The notes beneath the pieces were generated by a model. The model saw only the letters and a list, made by a program, of their open reading frames with translations, searched no databases and was not told the DNA's origin. A stretch of DNA of 26,569 nucleotides from a virus: IMG/VR virus record IMGVR_UViG_3300025112_000154, positions 1 to 26,569 of that record. One strand, given 5' to 3'. Below are positions 1,913 to 9,676 of this stretch, piece by piece. Numbering within the stretch: position 1 is the first letter of the stretch; each line of letters opens with the position of its first letter. The position numbers and the translations under genes were made by a program.

Positions 1913-2293
1913 ATGAACTCATACGAAAGAATTTATAGTCTAATAACGGAAATGAGACGGGGAAGAAAAAAAGGAGAACAAAAGTATCCTCAAGCACGAA
2001 CAGGCTCACGCCATACAGGACTCCAGCATGGCACTTCTTTGCGTCATGCTGCGGGAACGGCCAAACCCCTTAAATTACCTGCCGAGAGACGGGCTGCACC
2101 TGCACCAACAACAGCTACAAAGCCTTTATTACCATCAGGGGAGGCTAACCCAGCATATACAGCTATAATTAAAAGATTTACAGGTAAACTTAATCCAAAG
2201 GTTATAGCAGCAATGAAGAAAAGACTTAGTGGAAGCGAAGAGAATGTAAGTACCCAACACGGTGGGTCTGTGAGACAAGCGAGGGGTAAATAA
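1913..2293 (+). CDS. Basic internal head protein, leader type
   Basis: 126 residues. Residues 1-13 (MNSYERIYSLITE) are the shared leader of this region and end in I-T-E, matching the (L/I)-x-E recognition sequence of T4-type prohead proteases. The remainder is very basic and low in hydrophobics, with RRGRKKGEQKYPQ, a Pro/Ala/Thr-rich middle (ERRAAPAPTTATKPLLP) and a C-terminal KKRLSGSEE...RQARGK. In T4 such leaders (capsid targeting sequences) carry internal proteins into the prohead and are then removed; assignment here rests on that analogy. The ATG at 1913 is chosen over an upstream TTG (1892) because the leader starts there in all relatives. First of five consecutive genes of this kind. 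Confidence 0.78.
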   Translation: MNSYERIYSLITEMRRGRKKGEQKYPQARTGSRHTGLQHGTSLRHAAGTAKPLKLPAERRAAPAPTTATKPLLPSGEANPAYTAIIKRFTGKLNPKVIAAMKKRLSGSEENVSTQHGGSVRQARGK

Positions 2294-2294
2294 C

Positions 2295-2648
2295 ATGAAC
2301 TCCTACGAAAGAATATATAATATATTAGTAGAGAGGAGTGGAGCGAGTCGCGCTAGAACTGCTGGACGAAAAGAGGATGCTAAAATAGCAAAGAAAAGAA
2401 TAAGAGCGAAGCGCAAAGGCAAAAGCACTATAGGGGCAGCGGAGGCCCATAGAATGGGGAGGAGATCCGCAGAGTCGTTTGGTTCTTCAAGAGAGCTAAC
2501 AAAAGCAGCAAAAGAGCATGGAGGAAAAGGTACAGCAGCTTCAGAAGTTGCAAAGAGAGCACTAACTTCTCATGCAAAAGAAAGAGATATCGTTGCAAAA
2601 AGACAAAGAGGGGCAGGAAGAGCCGCTTCCCGACACACCTATAGATAA
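2295..2648 (+). CDS. Basic internal head protein, leader type
   Basis: 117 residues beginning MNSYERIYNILVE (L-V-E at 11-13), then a lysine/arginine/alanine-rich body (KKRIRAKRKGKSTIGAAEAH, VAKRQRGAGRAASRHTYR) with no hydrophobic core segment. Predicted role is DNA-associated cargo in the capsid, released from its leader by the prohead protease. It starts 2 bp after the previous stop with a GAGGGG ribosome site inside the preceding gene. The body is not obviously homologous to the neighbouring bodies; only the leader is shared, suggesting that leader and cargo evolve independently. Confidence 0.76.
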   Translation: MNSYERIYNILVERSGASRARTAGRKEDAKIAKKRIRAKRKGKSTIGAAEAHRMGRRSAESFGSSRELTKAAKEHGGKGTAASEVAKRALTSHAKERDIVAKRQRGAGRAASRHTYR

Positions 2649-2651
2649 AAA

Positions 2652-2822
2652 ATGAACACCTACGATAGAATATATAACTTGTTAGTAGAAATGCAACAAC
2701 GACCTCTTAAGACAGACTCCTTAACAGGAAAGATTTTTAGACATACAGAGACTGGTAAGAAGGTAAGAGATAAGGAAGGAGGCCCTTGGCGTAAAATAAA
2801 CAAGAAGCCTAAGAAAAAATGA
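2652..2822 (+). CDS. Short basic internal head protein (56 aa)
   Basis: The frame from ATG 2652 reads MNTYDRIYNLLVEMQQRPLK, continues through GKIFRHTETGKKVRDKEGG and ends PWRKINKKPKKK. Leader plus L-V-E (residues 11-13) is followed by a 43-residue basic peptide. It lies 3 bp after the previous stop and its TGA (2820-2822) overlaps the next ATG (2819) as ATGA, so the run of leader genes is unbroken. Small size would let it escape standard gene calling. Function is inferred from the leader only. Confidence 0.72.
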   Translation: MNTYDRIYNLLVEMQQRPLKTDSLTGKIFRHTETGKKVRDKEGGPWRKINKKPKKK

Positions 2823-3622
2823 ACTCCTACGATAGAATTTATAATATATTAGTTGAGACTGAAGAGGTAGACGAAGGACTTCTAGGTTTGCTTGCAAAAG
2901 GCATAGGGGGCGTAGGGAAGGCTGTTGGAGGGGCTGTTAAAAAGGTTTCGACTGGAGCTTCTAAAGCTGCCTCTAAGGTTGCGACTGGAGCTTCTAAAGC
3001 TGCCTCTAAAGTAGTAGCACCTAGGTCTCAGTTTAGAATTGTAACAAAAGAGAAAGAGAAAGAGAAAGAAAAGGAGCAAGCTAAAACGGGGCCTAGGTCT
3101 CAGTTTAGAATTGTAACAAAAGAGAAAGAGGAAGAGGAAGAACCAATGAAAAAACCTAAAAAAGAGAGAACAACCGTTTTGGAAGCATATGCTAGACTTT
3201 ATAATTTACTAGAAGGTCTCTCTCCTCAAGAAGAACTTAAAATAAAGAGACAGAAACAAGCTGAACTACGAAAAATGGGGCCTACGGCTCAGAAGAAAAT
3301 AAAACAAAAAGCGGGGCTTGGAGAAGCTTATCTTAGGCTTAAAAACCTTTTAGAGACGCAAGGAGGCCCACAACGACAACGCTACAAAGCGGGATTATCC
3401 CAAGTCCCTATGAAACGCCAAGCTAGGTTTGCTCCTCGTTCTCAGAGTGGGGATACTGCTTCTAAAGCTCAAGATGATAGAATGTCTGCATCTGCAAAAA
3501 CAACTAAGGATGTAATGTTAGGAAGTCGCCTTCTTTCTGCATTAAAGAAACCCTCATTAACGGGTATTCAAAGAGCGCAATTACAAAAAGCTTACGATAA
3601 ATTACAACAACGGAAACCATGA
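2819..3622 (+). CDS. Triple-leader basic protein, putative polyprotein
   Basis: 267 residues with three copies of the leader-like peptide: MNSYDRIYNILVE at 1-13, EAYARLYNLLEG near residues 122-133 and EAYLRLKNLLET near 168-179. Each ends in L-x-E or L-L-E, the type of site cut by T4-like prohead proteases. Between them lie internal repeats: GASKAASKVAT twice, and PRSQFRIVTKEKE twice with a degenerate PRSQSGD later. A charged KEKEKEKE/EEEEE linker separates the first and second segments. Cleavage at the three sites would give three basic peptides, so I read it as several internal proteins fused into one chain. It overlaps its neighbours as ATGA at both ends. Alternative: one long internal protein with repeated structural helices. 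Confidence 0.72.
   Translation: MNSYDRIYNILVETEEVDEGLLGLLAKGIGGVGKAVGGAVKKVSTGASKAASKVATGASKAASKVVAPRSQFRIVTKEKEKEKEKEQAKTGPRSQFRIVTKEKEEEEEPMKKPKKERTTVLEAYARLYNLLEGLSPQEELKIKRQKQAELRKMGPTAQKKIKQKAGLGEAYLRLKNLLETQGGPQRQRYKAGLSQVPMKRQARFAPRSQSGDTASKAQDDRMSASAKTTKDVMLGSRLLSALKKPSLTGIQRAQLQKAYDKLQQRKP
2820..2857 (+). repeat. 38-bp leader repeat, copy 1
   Basis: TGAACTCCTACGATAGAATT and the next 18 bases are identical to 9348-9385, 6.5 kb away. The repeat covers the leader codons of the two genes and ends exactly at the GAG of the L-V-E motif; the sequences diverge immediately after. Confidence 0.9.
2949..3009 (+). repeat. Tandem 28-bp repeat inside coding region
   Basis: Two identical 28-base units, 2949-2976 and 2982-3009, at a period of 33 bases, starting CGACTGGAGCTTCTAAAGCT. 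They encode the repeated T-G-A-S-K-A-A-S-K segment of the triple-leader protein. Period is a multiple of three, so the frame is kept. Confidence 0.9.
3020..3130 (+). repeat. Direct 39-bp repeat inside coding region
   Basis: Units at 3020-3058 and 3092-3130 are identical, beginning CCTAGGTCTCAGTTTAGAAT, period 72 bases, in frame. They encode PRSQFRIVTKEKE twice. Perfect identity indicates a recent duplication within the gene. Confidence 0.9.
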
Positions 3623-4212
3623 ATCCTTATCAACGCATTTACGAGGCACTTATTAATGAGATAGGCGATACTCAAAGAGGTAGAGAAAAGATTAAACAGG
3701 CTATTCACAATAGGCGCGTTGATTTAGATATAGCGGGGGCTGTTGCAAGAGATAATCCAAGAGGACCATCAGCGCAAGAGCCTCGCCAACTAGCAAAACT
3801 AGCTAGGGGAGCTTATCAAAAAGGAAAAGTAAAAGCTTACCTTAAAGGAAGAGAGGAAGGTGGGCATAAAGGAGCTATTAAAGCTTATAGAGGAGCTAAA
3901 AAGAGGCAAGCTAAGGAAGTTGCTTCCGTTGAAAGGAAACATCCTAAGGCTCCCAATGTTTATGGGGGTAATAAGCCTACTGGAGCGGGAGTAAGATCTG
4001 CTACAAGAAACATGACCTATAGGAATCGCCAAATAAAGAGGGAGATGGGTGAGAGTGAGGAGTTTCCTAAATTGTCTCAACTCTCTAAATTACGAAAAGG
4101 GATGACTGATGCTCAAAAGAGGGTATGGAATAGGGCTATGTCGAAGAAATCCAAGAAAGGGGAGTGGAGAACTCCCGAAAAATCAAAAAGAATAGCAAAG
4201 AGAGTAACTTAA
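3619..4212 (+). CDS. Basic internal head protein, leader type
   Basis: 197 residues, the largest single-leader member. The leader variant is MNPYQRIYEALINE with I-N-E at 12-14. The body is almost entirely Lys/Arg-rich helix (KLARGAYQKGKVKAYLKGRE, KAYRGAKKRQAKEVASVERK) and ends EWRTPEKSKRIAKRVT. It overlaps the preceding gene as ATGA and is the last of the first cluster. Expected to bind packaged DNA or be ejected with it; no enzyme motif is visible. Confidence 0.75.
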   Translation: MNPYQRIYEALINEIGDTQRGREKIKQAIHNRRVDLDIAGAVARDNPRGPSAQEPRQLAKLARGAYQKGKVKAYLKGREEGGHKGAIKAYRGAKKRQAKEVASVERKHPKAPNVYGGNKPTGAGVRSATRNMTYRNRQIKREMGESEEFPKLSQLSKLRKGMTDAQKRVWNRAMSKKSKKGEWRTPEKSKRIAKRVT

Positions 4213-4213
4213 G

Positions 4214-4221
4214 CCTATATA
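4214..4221 (+). promoter_or_regulatory. CCTATATA promoter-like motif
   Basis: CCTATATA followed by GACAAGGAGG, 18 nt before the ATG at 4240. Same octamer as at 1900, 5060, 6452 and 8374. The ribosome site follows within a few bases, so a start point in the usual place would give a very short leader. Confidence 0.45.
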
Positions 4222-4239
4222 GACAAGGAGGTATTTCAT

Positions 4240-4470
4240 ATGAAAGACTTAATGAAGCACTTACCTCTTACTCTTTCTGTTCTTACATTTCTCATGGTTG
4301 GTTCGTTTTGGCTTGGTCAATCCCCTAAAAAGGGATGCCAAACTTGCACTTCGATGAGAGCCCGAATATCACAAGCACCTGAGCGACTTAAAGCTTGGGA
4401 AGGCAAAGGTGATAAAATCAGGGGAAGAAGAGAAGAGGGTAAGAGAGGTCCTAAAACAGAAGGTAAATAG
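4240..4470 (+). CDS. Small membrane-anchored basic protein
   Basis: 76 residues. Residues about 8-27 (LPLTLSVLTFLMVGSFWLGQ) form one membrane helix or uncleaved signal anchor, followed by C-Q-T-C (CxxC) and a highly basic, Gly/Lys/Arg-rich tail (GDKIRGRREEGKRGPKTEGK). A strong AAGGAGG ribosome site precedes the ATG by 8 nt. The topology (short inside, one helix, basic outside) is compatible with a lysis accessory or spanin-like protein, but nothing proves this. It is followed by a strong hairpin at 4476-4503. Confidence 0.65.
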   Translation: MKDLMKHLPLTLSVLTFLMVGSFWLGQSPKKGCQTCTSMRARISQAPERLKAWEGKGDKIRGRREEGKRGPKTEGK

Positions 4471-4475
4471 AAAAT

Positions 4476-4503
4476 AGGGCTCCTAGAATTAACTAGGAGC
4501 CCT
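4476..4503. terminator. Bidirectional hairpin terminator
   Basis: Perfect 11-bp inverted repeat AGGGCTCCTAG / CTAGGAGCCCT (4476-4486, 4493-4503) with a 6-base loop, between the convergent ends of the membrane protein gene (plus) and the Hsp20 gene (minus). On the minus strand the stem is followed by ATTTTCTATTT, a U-tract; on the plus strand the tail is poor in T. It probably serves mainly the minus strand. Confidence 0.75.
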
Positions 4504-4527
4504 AAGCATAAAGAAGTGAATCTGAAC

Positions 4528-4953
4528 TTACATTAATTCGACGATTTCAGCATCTTTTGCGCGGGGTACGGTAATTGTAAGAAGACCATTGACAAAATCC
4601 GTCTCCGCTTTTTTTAAGTTAAACGCTTCGTCTATAACAAGCGAAAAATCGACATCCTTTTTAGAAATGCCGTGGTGTACAAATTTTACACCTTCTTCCT
4701 TTTCTCCATTTGCGGTAATGCGTAAAATATTTTTGCTGGCGCGAATTTTAAGATGTTCTTTCGCGTATCCAGCCAACGCAAACCTCAACCACAGTTTGTT
4801 GCCGTCATCATCAAGCCAGCAATCGGAGTGAGGATAATTTGGAAGTGAAGCTAATTGCTTTTTTGGTTCAATAACCAGTCGTTGCCAGTCTCGAAGGACC
4901 ATATCGAGATCTTTCCAAATATAATCAAAATTAGTCCAATAAAAGTTTCCCAT
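4528..4953 (-). CDS. hsp20: Hsp20 small heat-shock protein
   Basis: 141 residues from the ATG at 4953, preceded by AAAGGAG 7 nt upstream. The C-terminal 90 residues form an alpha-crystallin domain: WLDDDGNKLWLRFALAGYAK (beta strands and the conserved A-x-Y-x-K-E turn), LKIRASKNILRITANGEKE, then FSLVIDEAFNLKKAETDFVN and GLLTITVPR, the classic N-G-x-L-x-I-x-x-P ending. Small heat-shock proteins are holdases that bind unfolding proteins; Hsp20 genes occur in many T4-like phages, especially of cyanobacteria. The gene lies alone in antisense between plus-strand genes and has its own terminator. An upstream in-frame ATG (5007) would add 18 residues (see findings). Confidence 0.9.
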   Translation of the reverse strand: MGNFYWTNFDYIWKDLDMVLRDWQRLVIEPKKQLASLPNYPHSDCWLDDDGNKLWLRFALAGYAKEHLKIRASKNILRITANGEKEEGVKFVHHGISKKDVDFSLVIDEAFNLKKAETDFVNGLLTITVPRAKDAEIVELM

Positions 4954-4983
4954 TGTAATTCTCCTTTCTTTCGACAAGGGGTT

Positions 4984-5007
4984 ATGAGTCCCAAAATGGC
5001 GACTCAT
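4984..5007 (-). promoter_or_regulatory. Leader hairpin upstream of Hsp20
   Basis: Inverted repeat ATGAGTC (4984-4990) / GACTCAT (5001-5007) with a 10-base loop, at the predicted 5' end of the Hsp20 message, just after a TATA-rich stretch (5008-5024) that can act as -10 in both directions. It may stabilise the mRNA 5' end or act as a regulatory element. Confidence 0.4.
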
Positions 5008-5059
5008 TTTTATATAGTATAATAGTGGGATTTTTTGGTTTTTGAATAAATATATGCTT

Positions 5060-5067
5060 CCTATATA
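5060..5067 (+). promoter_or_regulatory. CCTATATA promoter-like motif
   Basis: CCTATATA followed by CAGTAGAGG; 15 nt separate it from the ATG at 5083, exactly the gap seen at 8374-8381. A TATAAT at 5018-5023 is an alternative plus-strand -10. Confidence 0.5.
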
Positions 5068-5082
5068 CAGTAGAGGTTTAAT

Positions 5083-5424
5083 ATGTCTTGGAAAAATACA
5101 CTGCTTTCACTTTTAGAAGATACACCTTCTAAAACAGAGATTAAAGTTAAAAAAGCACTAGGATGGAAGATTAGGCCTGAAGATGAGCCTGGGTTAGATC
5201 CTGGGTCGAGAAGACAAAGGATCAGAACGCGAAAAGGTCAGCACAGCACAAGCCCCCTTTCAGGGGGTCGCACAGGAAAACTTAAGCGTAAGTTGAAAAG
5301 TAAGGTATATACTTCTAGTGAACGCAGCTTTATCAAGTCTAAGCTTAGTAGACTACAGAAAGCAGGGAAGAAGCGAGAAGCTATGACCATGTATAAAGGA
5401 AGACCTAGCAGAGGTAAAAAATGA
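5083..5424 (+). CDS. Basic internal head protein, leader variant
   Basis: 113 residues starting MSWKNTLLSLLEDTPSK, a divergent leader with L-L-E at 10-12. The body is basic and glycine/serine-containing (GSRRQRIRTRKGQHSTSPLS, TGKLKRKLKSKVYTSSERSF) ending KGRPSRGKK. It begins the second cluster and is coupled to the following gene by ATGA (5421-5424). Leader assignment is less certain than for the MNSY group, since the aromatic Y-x-R-I-Y core is absent. Confidence 0.66.
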   Translation: MSWKNTLLSLLEDTPSKTEIKVKKALGWKIRPEDEPGLDPGSRRQRIRTRKGQHSTSPLSGGRTGKLKRKLKSKVYTSSERSFIKSKLSRLQKAGKKREAMTMYKGRPSRGKK

Positions 5425-5729
5425 ATTGGAAACAAAGAATTTATGAGAGTTTAACAGAGGCACAATTCGGTCCTCGCAAACCAAAGGGTAAAAGATCTGG
5501 TACGCAAGCTAAGACGGCTGGGACTCGTAATGTAGCAAAAAAAGCTGCTATGACGCATCCAAGTAAGAGAACTCCTGCACAGCAAAAAGCTTATGAGAAA
5601 GCAAGAAAGAAGTATCAAACAACGGGTGAGACTCCATTTAGGTCTGGGAGAGCCTGGAGACAAGAGCAAAACATTAAGCAAGCAGGATTAGGTGATGCTC
5701 CAAGTAAAAGAAAACGAGGAAAAAAATAG
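5421..5729 (+). CDS. Basic internal head protein, leader type
   Basis: 102 residues. The leader MNWKQRIYESLTEAQ combines MxW as in the gene before with R-I-Y as in the MNSY group, linking the two leader types; L-T-E lies at 11-13. The body is lysine-rich (KPKGKRSGTQAKTAGTRNVA, AYEKARKKYQTTGETPFRSG) and ends KRKRGKK. It is translated by ATGA coupling to the preceding gene. Predicted capsid cargo. Confidence 0.74.
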   Translation: MNWKQRIYESLTEAQFGPRKPKGKRSGTQAKTAGTRNVAKKAAMTHPSKRTPAQQKAYEKARKKYQTTGETPFRSGRAWRQEQNIKQAGLGDAPSKRKRGKK

Positions 5730-5768
5730 TTTAGTATATCGGGCGGGGTAGCTAATTAGGAGTTAATT

Positions 5769-6152
5769 ATGACTGATAAACCCATTATAAATAAGCAAGG
5801 TTACATTGATGTTAAGTCTGCTGTAAAGCTTAAACAGACTGAAGCTAAAGCTGATGAGAGAATGAAAGGTGCGGAGAGCAAAGCTCGTATGCAAGAGTTA
5901 ATATTTAAAGAGTCAGCAAAAGAAAGTGCGTCGAAACACTTAGCTAGATTTGCAGGTTTGTACCTACTTATCTTAGTTCTTGCCTTCATTTTTAGTATAA
6001 AGTTTATTCCCGAAACTAGTATTGCAGTAGTTGCAGGTTTAATCACGCTTGTTGTGACTAATTTATCGACTATTCTTAAGGGAATTGTTGAGAATGGAAG
6101 TACACCAGAAGGAGAAGATAAAACTCCTTCGCAAAATCAATTTAAACATTAG
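5769..6152 (+). CDS. Two-helix membrane protein, holin-like
   Basis: 127 residues. The first 55 are a charged helix with coiled-coil character (KLKQTEAKADERMKGAESKA). Then come two hydrophobic helices, about 60-76 (LYLLILVLAFIFSIKFI) and 80-103 (TSIAVVAGLITLVVTNLSTI), separated by a short P-E-T turn, and a polar tail. The hairpin topology and size match phage holins and similar pore or anchor proteins, but sequence alone does not separate these. A good AGGAG site lies 8 nt before the ATG. It sits between internal-protein genes and does not carry their leader. Confidence 0.65.
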   Translation: MTDKPIINKQGYIDVKSAVKLKQTEAKADERMKGAESKARMQELIFKESAKESASKHLARFAGLYLLILVLAFIFSIKFIPETSIAVVAGLITLVVTNLSTILKGIVENGSTPEGEDKTPSQNQFKH

Positions 6153-6160
6153 GAGAAATT

Positions 6161-6406
6161 ATGAGTTGGAAAGATAAGTTATTTAATTCTTTTTTAGAAG
6201 AAGAAGAAAAAAGAAAAAGAGGCTATAGATACTCTTCTGGAGCAGGTGATCCTACAGTAGGTCAGCAGTCTAAACCTTCAAGAGGAAGAGGAGTAAAAGA
6301 GATAGAAGCTTCTAAAAAGAAGGGTTCAGCACATAGAGGAAGAATGGCTGGACACATTAAAAGAATACGCAAACACTATAAAGAACATCCAGAGGATAAA
6401 CCTTAA
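6161..6406 (+). CDS. Small basic protein, leader variant
   Basis: 81 residues beginning MSWKDKLFNSFLEEEEKRKR; L-E-E at 12-14 is a possible cleavage site and the MSWK start matches the gene at 5083. The rest is Arg/Lys/Gly-rich (SKPSRGRGVKEIEASKKKGS, HRGRMAGHIKRIRKHYKEHP). AGGAG lies 7 nt upstream of the ATG. Likely a further internal protein; the leader is at the divergent end of the family. Confidence 0.64.
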   Translation: MSWKDKLFNSFLEEEEKRKRGYRYSSGAGDPTVGQQSKPSRGRGVKEIEASKKKGSAHRGRMAGHIKRIRKHYKEHPEDKP

Positions 6407-6451
6407 ACAAAATAATACCTAAAAATTTTCGCGTGGGGCTCGCTGCGCTCG

Positions 6452-6459
6452 CCTATATA
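6452..6459 (+). promoter_or_regulatory. CCTATATA promoter-like motif
   Basis: CCTATATATTTTAAAGGAC begins here, 24 nt before the ATG at 6484. The 13 bases CCTATATATTTTA are identical at 8374, the strongest pair among these sites. It precedes the two putative virion protein genes, so it is probably a strong late promoter. Confidence 0.55.
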
Positions 6460-6483
6460 TTTTAAAGGACATAGGAGTTTTAA

Positions 6484-7320
6484 ATGCCTACATTTTCACC
6501 ATCATCAGTATCATCACTGTCTTACACGGCAACAGCCTTATTACCTACCACAGCAGTAAACAGCTTTTCTAATGTTTATGACGGGGGTGATTACGGTGCT
6601 AGTGGACCTTGGATGATTGAAGAACAAGCCATGACAGTACAATATTGGCGTGTTCCTAGAATTACACCATCAGGTCTTCACCTTAACCTAAGTGATTGTT
6701 CTCAATCATTAAATGTCGCTTATACAGATTTATGGGTACAAGTTAATGCTATGTATAGTCGCACCTACACCACGGATATTTATGTTTCTGCTATACAAAC
6801 TCGCACCCAGTTGTTTGAGCTACAGTCTAACAACACTGACCAAGAAGGGGTTACATATAATGCTGATGCGCCTAACGGAACAAATCTTCCCGCTTCTGCG
6901 TTAGGTGTACGAGGATCCATCTATACTTCAAGACCTTGGTATAATAGGAGACCTTGGCTTTCTGCTACGGATAGCACTACGCACCAATTCAATGCTTCTC
7001 AGGCATATAATTTCCGTATAGCTGGACTAGGGGGGAAAACAGAAGATGAAATCTTCGGAAATGATTACGCTTGGTGGTCTCCTACTACTAACCCATTAGG
7101 GGTAGAAGGGGCACAGATGATAACTAATATGCCTGGAGGGTCTATTAACGGAAATTACGACCCAGATAATGATTATTTAAGAGGAGCATTCCTACCTCAA
7201 ATACTCGATCTTATTGGGACAAAAATAGCCGCAGGTACTTTAACGAGCTATACGGCTGAGTCAGGAAGAAGGGTTCCTGGTTACAGGAAAGACAGACATG
7301 ATTATACTAACACCCCCTAA
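6484..7320 (+). CDS. Putative virion structural protein (paralog A)
   Basis: 278 residues rich in Ser, Thr, Tyr, Trp, Asn and Gly, low in Lys, strongly beta-type and unlike its basic neighbours. It shares with the next gene a segment S-G-P-W-M-(I/V)-E-x-Q-x-M followed by Y-x-R-V-P, and further W/Y-rich matches (WYNRRPWLSATDSTT against WYYRRYWNDATDTEY), so the two are paralogs. AGGAG precedes the ATG. With an upstream promoter-like motif and a hairpin after the second gene they form a separate unit, as expected for abundant virion components such as head decoration or fibre proteins. I cannot name the family. Confidence 0.7.
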   Translation: MPTFSPSSVSSLSYTATALLPTTAVNSFSNVYDGGDYGASGPWMIEEQAMTVQYWRVPRITPSGLHLNLSDCSQSLNVAYTDLWVQVNAMYSRTYTTDIYVSAIQTRTQLFELQSNNTDQEGVTYNADAPNGTNLPASALGVRGSIYTSRPWYNRRPWLSATDSTTHQFNASQAYNFRIAGLGGKTEDEIFGNDYAWWSPTTNPLGVEGAQMITNMPGGSINGNYDPDNDYLRGAFLPQILDLIGTKIAAGTLTSYTAESGRRVPGYRKDRHDYTNTP

Positions 7321-7342
7321 TAATCACATAAGGAGATAACAT

Positions 7343-8293
7343 ATGCCACCAACAATGCCAGCATGGGGCGCACCTGGAACACCAGTCCCCACAATCCCAT
7401 ATAACCCTACGGGTTCTCAGTTTTACTCTTCATCTTCTACATCAGGCATAAACCCTGCCTCAGGTGAATCAGGTGCGTTATCAGGTCCTTGGATGGTTGA
7501 AATTCAATCAATGGATTATGATTATGTAAGGGTTCCTTTTGTAGAAATGTCTTCAACGCAATTTACTCTTTCTGATACTTCTTGGGATGGTAATGTTAAA
7601 TGGACTCACATGCAAATTAATGCTAGAGCTTTCTATCAAGTAAAGAAGACTTATGAGAACTATGCCACCTCTTCTTGGATTCAAAATCAAAGATTTGCCG
7701 TACAAGCGGTAAGTGCGGATCCTTACGGGAATACTTATGGGTCTGTTTCGGCAGGAACTTTCGGTCCAGCAGGAAAAATCGTAACTGAACAAGAGTGGTA
7801 TTATAGACGGTATTGGAACGATGCTACTGATACAGAGTACAGTAAAACGATGGATGGAGGCTATACTTTCTATGTGACGGACGCTGGGGCTGGTTGGACT
7901 TGGGGGACTTCGAACGGAGGGTTTGATTCGGCTAACGGAACTCCTCAGTATGTGGTTTGGGGTAATTATGATCGTACTTTACAATCATATGAAGAAGGAG
8001 CCCCTATGGAAGGCTGTAGAGTAACTCGACAATCAACCGATAACCAAAATGATGGTCCTGTAGTTATGGAAGGGGATTACTTCACAGGCATAGCAATGGC
8101 AGTTAATACTAAATGGGGTGGTTATAAAACCACTCAGGATACAAACCAAGATGTTGCGGTTACCACTAATTCGCTTGGTGGGTGGATTAGAGCAGAAGAA
8201 ATGATGAAGAATGCTGCTCTAGGGGATGTTATGAGCAATGACAACCGCACAGGTATCTCAGAATACAGCGAATTCCGACATGCTTGGAATTAA
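7343..8293 (+). CDS. Putative virion structural protein (paralog B)
   Basis: 316 residues; paralog of the preceding gene (S-G-P-W-M-V-E-I-Q-S-M and Y-V-R-V-P near residues 48-65; WYYRRYWNDATDTEY near 152). The N-terminal 45 residues are Pro/Gly/Ser-rich and flexible; the rest is beta-type with many Trp and Tyr and several Gly-Asn turns (GTPQYVVWGNYDRT). Start ATG 7343 has a strong AAGGAG site. The pair ends at a 13-bp hairpin. Likely exposed on the virion; whether head or tail cannot be decided from the sequence. No leader peptide or (L/I)-x-E start is present, so it is not an internal protein. Confidence 0.7.
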   Translation: MPPTMPAWGAPGTPVPTIPYNPTGSQFYSSSSTSGINPASGESGALSGPWMVEIQSMDYDYVRVPFVEMSSTQFTLSDTSWDGNVKWTHMQINARAFYQVKKTYENYATSSWIQNQRFAVQAVSADPYGNTYGSVSAGTFGPAGKIVTEQEWYYRRYWNDATDTEYSKTMDGGYTFYVTDAGAGWTWGTSNGGFDSANGTPQYVVWGNYDRTLQSYEEGAPMEGCRVTRQSTDNQNDGPVVMEGDYFTGIAMAVNTKWGGYKTTQDTNQDVAVTTNSLGGWIRAEEMMKNAALGDVMSNDNRTGISEYSEFRHAWN

Positions 8294-8332
8294 TTAAGGT
8301 CTGGTTGCAAGGATCGCTACCTTAGCACCGTT

Positions 8333-8367
8333 ATAAGCCGAAAGAGTTTTTTATTCTTTCGGCTTAT
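8333..8367 (+). terminator. Hairpin terminator after paralog pair
   Basis: Perfect 13-bp inverted repeat ATAAGCCGAAAGA (8333-8345) / TCTTTCGGCTTAT (8355-8367) with a T-rich 9-base loop, followed by TCTTTG. The downstream U-tract is weak, but position between a stop codon and the next promoter motif fits a terminator. A second small repeat TAAGGT/ACCTTA lies at about 8296-8324. Confidence 0.65.
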
Positions 8368-8373
8368 TCTTTG

Positions 8374-8381
8374 CCTATATA
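8374..8381 (+). promoter_or_regulatory. CCTATATA promoter-like motif
   Basis: CCTATATATTTTAGAGG starts here, 15 nt before an ATG at 8397. Thirteen bases identical to the site at 6452; follows directly on the hairpin at 8333-8367. Confidence 0.55.
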
Positions 8382-8396
8382 TTTTAGAGGTAAATT

Positions 8397-8483
8397 ATGT
8401 CACATTTTCGATGAGGAAAAGGAAAAAAGAAGAAGCCTGTTGGTAGACCTAAGCCTAGGCCAATTCTATGAGGTGGTCATCTC
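8397..8483 (+). other. TGA-interrupted basic micro-ORF
   Basis: ATG 8397 has a good AGAGG site and a promoter motif, but its frame reads M-S-H-F-R then TGA. The same frame continues as GKGKKKKPVGRPKPRPIL, a second TGA, then GGHL and runs in phase into the ATG at 8484. Only TGA interrupts this 29-codon stretch. Possible explanations: two G-to-A changes in former TGG codons (decayed gene start), stop readthrough, or coincidence with the real product being only the downstream gene. TGA is an ordinary stop elsewhere in the window, so general recoding is unlikely. Confidence 0.4.
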
Positions 8484-8804
8484 ATGAGTAATTTTAAAAA
8501 ACTTAGAACTATATTGGAAATTGCACAAGGAACTCGTACAATGTCGGGTGCTTCAAGGGCTTATAGAAAATCGCTCACTTCTTCTTGGAAGCAAGGAGAG
8601 AAATCAGGAGAGCTTCAACAAAAAGCGGCTGAATTGGAAAAGAGTGGAGGGGCTATAGCCAAAATCCATAGCGACACTATGCGAAAAGTAGCTAAGAGAT
8701 TAAGAAAAAAAGGTTCTACATCCCTAGATACCGCAATGCGGTTACGAAAGGCTGTACCTCAAAGCTCAAAAAGACGAAAAGAAAGGTTAAATATAGAGAG
8801 ATAA
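8484..8804 (+). CDS. Basic internal head protein, leader variant
   Basis: 106 residues starting MSNFKKLRTILEIAQGTRTM; the I-L-E at 10-12 resembles a prohead protease site, although the spacing and aromatic pattern differ from the MNSY group. The body is basic and helical (SWKQGEKSGELQQKAAELEK, MRKVAKRLRKKGSTSLDTAM) ending KRRKERLNIER. AGGTGG lies 7 nt before the ATG. An upstream frame broken by two TGA codons runs into this start. Confidence 0.66.
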   Translation: MSNFKKLRTILEIAQGTRTMSGASRAYRKSLTSSWKQGEKSGELQQKAAELEKSGGAIAKIHSDTMRKVAKRLRKKGSTSLDTAMRLRKAVPQSSKRRKERLNIER

Positions 8805-8805
8805 T

Positions 8806-9114
8806 ATGCCTAGAGTAGGAACAAAACATTTTGCTTATACTAAAAAGGGGAAAGCTGCTGCTAAAGCTGAGGCTGCAAAAAAAGGAAAGCGCATGAAGTA
8901 TGAGGATGCTTCCTATGGGCGACTTTATTCACTTTTGGTTGAGTCTGATTGGATTCAAGGGGCAGTAAACCCTAAGCATAAAGGTTATTGCACACCTATG
9001 ACCAAAGAAACCTGCACACCTCGTCGTAAAGCTTTAGCTAAGAGATTTAAAAAAGCGGCAAGACGAGAAGGTACTAAGGCTGGTGGGAAAACGGGTTGGA
9101 AAGGAAAAGTATGA
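8806..9114 (+). CDS. Basic protein with internal leader motif
   Basis: 102 residues with three parts: residues 1-30, MPRVGTKHFAYTKKGKAAAK and following, an N-terminal motif of a kind I recognise from small proteins of other phages; residues 37-46, YGRLYSLLVE, a leader-like peptide ending L-V-E but placed inside the protein; and residues 50-102, a basic segment with two Cys-Thr-Pro units (GYCTPMTKETCTPRRKALAK) that may bind metal or form a disulfide. If cut at L-V-E the C-terminal cargo would be released as in its relatives. It is coupled by ATGA to the next gene. Confidence 0.68.
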   Translation: MPRVGTKHFAYTKKGKAAAKAEAAKKGKRMKYEDASYGRLYSLLVESDWIQGAVNPKHKGYCTPMTKETCTPRRKALAKRFKKAARREGTKAGGKTGWKGKV

Positions 9115-9350
9115 ACTCCTACGATAGAATTTATACTTTGTTAAAAGAAGCTGCCAAGCGTACTGGAAAAACTAGAAAGTTCAAGAGTGGTGAGTACCAA
9201 AGTAATACTTTTTCTGCTCTTAGACCACAAGGCAAGAGAAGAACATCTACTGATACTGATGAAACAGATACAGGGAGACAGGGACCTAAACTCCCTACCA
9301 GACTACAAGCAAAATTAGGGGCTTATAAGAAGTTGAGGAAAAAGAAGTGA
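9111..9350 (+). CDS. Basic internal head protein, leader type
   Basis: 79 residues from the ATG at 9111, which overlaps the previous TGA as ATGA; an upstream TTG (9096) is rejected because the leader starts here. Leader MNSYDRIYTLLKEAAKR with L-K-E at 11-13. The body is Lys/Arg/Thr-rich with a polar acidic patch (TSTDTDETDTGRQGPK) and ends KLRKKK. Same cluster logic as the genes at 1913-4212, but 5 kb away. Confidence 0.75.
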   Translation: MNSYDRIYTLLKEAAKRTGKTRKFKSGEYQSNTFSALRPQGKRRTSTDTDETDTGRQGPKLPTRLQAKLGAYKKLRKKK

Positions 9351-9676
9351 ACTCCTACGATAGAATTTATAATATATTAGTTGAGCATCAGTTTAAGAGG
9401 GGAAAGAAGAAATCGTGGTGGGCAAAGGGGTTGCGTAGCACAACGACTTCTCCCCGTCAAAAAAGCCATCAGGAGCTTGACGCAGACATCACCAGTACTC
9501 TAGATTCACATGCACGAATAGCATCTGAGCCTGAAGCAAAAAGAGGTGAAGCGTGGAGAGGTCATATGAAAAAGGTCTCAAAGGACGCTTGGACTGATGT
9601 TGAGGAAAAGGTGAGAAGACAACAGGCAGCGGAAACTAATAAGAAATGGAAAGAGGCAAAGAAGAAGAGTACTTAG
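9347..9676 (+). CDS. Basic internal head protein, GTG start
   Basis: 109 residues; the GTG start overlaps the preceding TGA as GTGA, and the 38 bases from 9348 are identical to the start of the triple-leader gene at 2819. Leader MNSYDRIYNILVE with L-V-E at 11-13, then HQFKRGKKKSWWAKGLRSTT, a middle with acidic helix, and a lysine-rich end (NKKWKEAKKKST). Its last 41 bases overlap the convergent glycosyltransferase-like gene. Sharing of the leader at DNA level with an unrelated body points to recent leader copying. Confidence 0.74.
   Translation: MNSYDRIYNILVEHQFKRGKKKSWWAKGLRSTTTSPRQKSHQELDADITSTLDSHARIASEPEAKRGEAWRGHMKKVSKDAWTDVEEKVRRQQAAETNKKWKEAKKKST
9348..9385 (+). repeat. 38-bp leader repeat, copy 2
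   Basis: Identical to 2820-2857. Both copies encode the leader of a putative internal head protein; flanks on both sides differ, apart from the start-codon position (GTG here, ATG there). Confidence 0.9.

Follow-up and report, generated by a model that had tools for sequence, protein, structure and literature searches.

The stretch of DNA analyzed here, hereafter the window, comprises 26,569 nt of IMG/VR record IMGVR_UViG_3300025112_000154 (positions 1–26,569). The virus is a marine T4-like myovirus, and the window includes genes for terminase (10341), Portal_T4 (11858), a UvsW-like helicase (16654), and a T4 baseplate protein (18056). A second contig, IMGVR_UViG_3300002514_000012 (110,937 bp), is 99.992% identical over window positions 2502–26569 (24,068 bp) and represents the same virus; gene counts given below refer to the whole virus, taken as 113 kb. 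Among deposited phage records, the best matches reach a terminase identity of only about 33–34%.

Positions 1913–9676 hold an array of genes for basic proteins marked by similar leader peptides (Table 1). A sequence-only reading of this region had described at least eleven genes with the leader at their start and one more that carries it internally, the leaders ending in (L/I)-x-E or a variant of it at residues 10–14 and preceding very basic bodies that differ from one another. This description is borne out: the leader-first genes start at positions from 1913 to 9347, the internal leader lies in the 8806 product, and all window leaders terminate in [I/L/V/F]-x-E, or a near variant, at residues 10–14. 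The bodies have a pI of about 10–11.5 and are mutually unrelated, with no pair matching at E ≤ 1e-4. That reading overlooked the internal copies in the 2819 product as well as tagged genes elsewhere in the genome. Window genes are named here by their start positions; for the relatives, V110 is the virus to which locus L110 belongs, and V111_2874 is the L111 gene that starts at 2874.

Table 1. Coordinates of the tagged genes, internal tags, and promoter-like element in the window.
Feature	Leader or tag	Position	Strand	Remarks
Promoter-like element	GGGACTCCTATATAA	1894..1908	+	4 nt 5' of first tagged gene
Tagged basic protein	MNSYERIYSLITE	1913..2293	+	Leader rule and leader profile
Tagged basic protein	MNSYERIYNILVE	2295..2648	+	Body weakly similar to V110_8707 and V111_483
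Tagged basic protein	MNTYDRIYNLLVE	2652..2822	+	Homologue is C-terminal unit of fused V111_2874
Tagged basic protein	MNSYDRIYNILVE	2819..3622	+	Two further internal tag-like copies
Internal tag 1 of 2819 product	EAYARLYNLLEG	3182..3217	+	Profile score 9.1
Internal tag 2 of 2819 product	EAYLRLKNLLET	3323..3358	+	By eye; under profile cut-off
Tagged basic protein	MNPYQRIYEALINE	3619..4212	+	Body start homologous to V110_9599 and to internal unit of V117_595
Tagged basic protein, payload DTPSKTE...	MSWKNTLLSLLE	5083..5424	+	Payload behind other leaders in G002, V120, and V067
Tagged basic protein, W class	MNWKQRIYESLTE	5421..5729	+	Leader rule
Tagged basic protein	MSWKDKLFNSFLEE	6161..6406	+	Leader rule
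Tagged basic protein	MSNFKKLRTILE	8484..8804	+	Payload common to V120, G002, and V121
Basic protein, tag internal		8806..9114	+	N terminus matches phrog_33179
Internal tag of 8806 product	ASYGRLYSLLVE	8908..8943	+	Profile score 20.6
Tagged basic protein	MNSYDRIYTLLKE	9111..9350	+	Leader rule
Tagged basic protein, GTG start	MNSYDRIYNILVE	9347..9676	+	Leader DNA that of 2819 except start codon

To describe the leader, we used a rule (aromatic residue at position 3 or 4, aliphatic residue at 7, and an [ILVMFY]xE ending at 9–15) applied to basic genes. The rule holds for 14 of the 26 basic genes of the virus, compared with a mean of 0.3 and a maximum of 3 when N termini are shuffled. Counts elsewhere are 8 in G002, 6 in V120, 4 in P-SSM2, 3 in HTVC008M, 2 in T4, and 1 each in Syn9 and KVP40, and because the rule misses IPI–III and Alt among the basic genes of T4, these figures are a yardstick for this leader design rather than a full census of capsid-targeting sequences (CTSs). 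All 11 window leaders have a hydrophobic residue at position 7 and an aromatic residue at position 4, or at position 3 in the W class defined below. Leaders measure 9–15 residues, mostly 12–14, and most tagged proteins are 50–270 amino acids long. Scored against a profile trained solely on the leaders of other viruses, nine window genes and two from the rest of the genome rank in the top 12 of 132. Six of these genes reach 30–33 bits, compared with 11.8 for the best shuffled N terminus. At a net charge of at least 0.10 per residue, the 19 most basic genes include 15 with a leader of this design, if the internal leader of 8806 and the short leader of a head-module gene are counted.

The promoter-like element upstream of the array, GGGACTCCTATATAA, is conserved in V110, V112, V119, V120, and G002 at the matching site ahead of the array's first gene, and with different spacing in V075. 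The form CCTATATA also lies upstream of 5083 and of structural-type genes; in the window it occurs near 4214, 5060, 6452, and 8374. This distribution suggests a promoter role for the element. With just 4 nt between GGGACTCCTATATAA and the ATG of the first array gene, the transcript could be almost leaderless. Behind a CCTATATA element and AGAGG, positions 8397–8471 hold a short frame, MSHFR-TGA-GKGKKKKPVGRPKPRPIL, in which a basic peptide is interrupted by an in-frame TGA.

A search for the leader in related phages, which the sequence-only reading had proposed as a check, found tagged genes across the relatives. Combining pattern scans with a terminase search, we counted 88 tagged genes over a set of 17 related contigs that includes the window. 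Most leaders fall into two main classes, MNxYxRIYxLLxE (Y) and MNWxxRIYESLxE (W), and V067 and V075 have F-type leaders such as MNNFEQYLINVLLE. Y-class genes sit behind the GGGACTCCTATATAA element, and W-class genes are mostly closer to the terminase gene. The notion of a single import tag is thus an oversimplification, since there are two leader classes plus outliers. Several other relatives with 66–69% terminase identity have no such arrays upstream of the terminase gene, so the array is not universal.

Comparison of relatives reveals that the same payload can occur behind different leaders. The DTPSKTE payload is found with three leaders, and in five of five swap pairs homology begins at residue 1 after the Glu, with leader identity of 17–31%. 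Likewise, the HGADVFHKK payload follows MNWQNRIYESLTE in V119 (W class) and MNAYERIYTLLTE in V120 (Y class), the MSGATRAYR payload has three kinds of leader, and the GELKKQR payload has two, again with homology from residue 1. The payload of 8484 carries the leader MNW[KE]D[RK]LLTE in V120 and G002 and MDFKTKVAFVLLSE in V121. For DTPSKTE and HGADVFHKK, leader class tracks the array that holds the gene and not the payload. For leaders of the same class, the comparison gives 0.54 within a virus versus 0.435 between viruses, a gap that is smaller by another measure; leaders are thus only modestly homogenized within each virus. Recombination may be spreading leader DNA.

Tags also occur inside proteins. 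A profile scan scored nine internal tags, compared with 0.1 in shuffled sequences, and tags are present at the joints of fusions. The 2652 protein stands alone in the window, and its counterpart is part of V111_2874 with a tag at the joint; similarly, V110_9599, the relative of 3619, stands alone and has its counterpart inside V117_595, also with a tag at the joint. The region around internal tag 2 of the 2819 product is homologous to the tagged units V110_7452 and V111_2874. These arrangements suggest that the prohead protease may process multicargo polyproteins at internal tags. An in-frame ATG is kept in most internal tags (it is absent from those of 8806, 2819, and V117_595), which means that some of the tags may mark internal translation starts and not cleavage sites. 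A Glu lies at most five residues upstream of all nine; we considered double cleavage at these tags and set it aside, as in most of them the upstream Glu can equally well be what is left of a ribosome site that once preceded a start codon.

The sequence-only reading had named the lack of a prohead protease in the genome as an outcome that would speak against capsid targeting; a gp21-like protease is in fact encoded in the 110,937-bp contig of the same virus (Peptidase_S77, E = 2.4e-24). It conserves the T4 gp21 motifs GELxHP and GxSSRG, which contain the catalytic His and Ser, and a protease is present in all four tag-bearing contigs >70 kb that we tested, those of the window virus, G002, V110, and V120. 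The gene order of the surrounding head module resembles that of T4: an acidic gp67-like protein, a gp68-like protein, a basic protein, the protease, a scaffold-like protein, and the major capsid protein (MCP), with the gp67, gp68, and scaffold names given by position and composition and the MCP cleavage site placed only roughly. Several viruses also have a short leader with an [IL]xE ending on the basic protein encoded immediately upstream of the protease (MNIFETIRE, MDILDQILE, MKLTDIITE). As a separate observation, the protease of this virus (L085, joined coordinates 59021–59848) bears a long basic C-terminal extension that is also found in G002, whereas T4 gp21 has none.

We interpret the array as an expanded internal-protein system of the T4 type, whose basic payloads lose a CTS-like leader to the prohead protease, enter the virion, and are probably ejected from it, and we assign this reading a probability of roughly 0.8. 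In such a scheme, the array genes would be transcribed late from GGGACTCCTATATAA, and the 10- to 15-residue leader, with its aromatic residue at 3 or 4 and aliphatic residue at 7, would act as a CTS that binds the scaffold core, so that the protein becomes part of the prohead. Cleavage by the S77 protease after (I/L)-x-E would then remove the leader, and the basic body would stay with the packaged DNA, probably entering the cell alongside it, where it could condense or protect the DNA, disarm host defenses, or both. Indirect evidence speaks strongly for a capsid-cargo design: the protease encoded by this virus, the swapped leaders, the tags at fusion joints, and the protein-level conservation of leader codons.

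T4 has few internal proteins, such proteins are known chiefly from enteric phages, and three have proven antirestriction roles. IPI–III and Alt likewise have a short N-terminal propeptide ending in (I/L)xE, an S77 protease, and basic, mutually unrelated bodies, and they too are accessory and variable between relatives; the aromatic residue 4 and hydrophobic residue 7 of IPI–III (MKTYQEFIAE) match the present design. The T4 CTS is ≈10 residues long, with residues 4 and 7 important for targeting of IPIII and residues 8 and 10 for processing (PMC9026906), and the T4 internal proteins and Alt are ejected (PMC9026906). The present system differs from T4 in having 14 basic tagged genes versus three internal proteins and Alt, arrays upstream of the terminase gene, two main leader classes mostly 12–14 residues long, and internal tags in fusions. 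Because our leader profile does not pick out T4 IPI–III or Alt, the link to T4 is one of design and context rather than leader homology. The array thus appears to work like the T4 system while being larger, with other leaders and fused cargos.

Other systems share parts of this design. At least 10 internal proteins have been reported across related T-even phages (Repoila et al. 1994, as cited in PMC12373910), and this repertoire, as outlined there, also combines a conserved leader with many bodies at a genomic hotspot, although its variety is described across phages, compared with about a dozen in one genome here. In the phiKZ-like phage SPN3US, a gp21-like protease cuts the propeptides of gp53, gp54, and gp47 after a short motif ending in Glu, but these propeptides exceed 100 residues and form no common short leader array (PMC7411985), unlike the leaders of 9–15 residues described here. 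The Prochlorococcus phage P-SSM2 has basic genes with short N termini ending in E (MKTYQQFNE, MKTFKQFQE, MKSFKQFLEE, MRTFQEFLQLCE); these number only four by the same rule, have T4-like leader sequence, and are partly scattered.

What the payloads do is the point on which the strongest rival differs. It accepts the same tag mechanism, as a core-assembly signal, but regards the payloads as solely structural, protamine-like packaging aids that condense DNA and not as host effectors. The lysine/arginine-rich bodies have no recognizable domains, and the T4 internal proteins are themselves abundant, basic, and thought to interact with DNA, with IPIII affecting head assembly (PMC9026906), which makes this a real possibility, if somewhat short of even odds. 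An electrostatic job, however, seems not to need a dozen unrelated, exchanged bodies, and T4 Ip1, Ip2, and Ip3 inhibit distinct GmrSD restriction enzymes while having only the leader in common (PMC12373910). Counter-defense and DNA condensation are both compatible with our data. The payload bodies gave no sequence match to the T4 internal proteins or to other useful families in PHROGs, Pfam, and phage searches, apart from phrog_33179, which carries no functional annotation, and tblastn searches of phages with the products of 3619 and 8806 yielded no matches; missing homology to the T4 proteins is not decisive, because those proteins share only their leader.

A different objection is that the leader could direct proteins to another place (a membrane, a replication site, or a binding partner) independently of the prohead protease, as a short amphipathic N-terminal peptide might. 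We consider this unlikely, given the Glu at the predicted P1 position with the swap boundary directly after it, the similar [IL]xE leader on the core-adjacent basic protein of several viruses, and the fit to the T4 CTS design, although (I/L)xE is a short, common pattern. Even less probable is that the repeated start is a DNA or RNA element for translation initiation, coupling, or recombination. The near-identical DNA of some copies (2819 and 9347) and the lack of a clear Shine–Dalgarno sequence at several genes speak for such an element, but Y-class leader codons show pS of 0.63 and pN of 0.26 compared with 0.72 and 0.70 in the next 12 codons, a contrast that is somewhat inflated, as are the other conservation statistics, because leaders were picked by rule. 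Moreover, W- and F-class leaders retain the same peptide design in different DNA, and tags are kept inside fused proteins, some without any ATG. That the genes are ordinary paralogues diverged past recognition, as tandem arrangement and one leader might suggest, is least likely, because the window bodies do not match one another and some match bodies of other viruses behind different leaders.

The internal-protein reading has several implications. In uncultured marine viruses, the tag offers a sequence handle with which to list candidate ejected proteins, and the swaps suggest a rule for cargo recruitment, namely replacement of the leader as far as the cleavage site. This modular exchange of tags and payloads looks like a system for carrying proteins into the newly infected cell. 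A bolder version, tentative and in our view less likely than not, is a plug-and-play virion cargo in which payloads are captured behind the local import tag, fusions are split by the protease, and ejected counter-defense proteins rotate. One tagged payload of a relative, V111_2020 (L111:2020–2877), is a possible packaged 2H phosphoesterase: it contains two HxT-like motifs, and its tRNA_lig_CPD match (E = 0.0069) stays below threshold; a PDB sequence search gave nothing relevant, and its AlphaFold model, built without an alignment, has a mean pLDDT of 43.

The tag pattern also occurs in contig QCKN01000003.1 (L140, 130,604 bp) from the Prochlorococcus single-cell genome AG-409-P03, which hints at a picocyanobacterial host; because the viral contigs showed no psbA, this assignment is only a lead.

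A small heat-shock protein of the HSP20 family is encoded within the cargo array (4528–5007, minus strand), and genes of similar appearance also occur near the W-class arrays of V133, V134, V136, and V138. Two related-looking proteins (6484–7320 and 7343–8293; SGPWM[IV]E... and an RVP motif), without convincing family matches, have parallels in V120, which carries four tandem genes of this type. Finally, an 868-amino-acid protein without a family match adjoins the tail tube gene at L089:5116–7722 (minus strand); it begins MNYFEELLES, suggesting a possible large capsid-targeted protein, and an L121 protein has a similar start.
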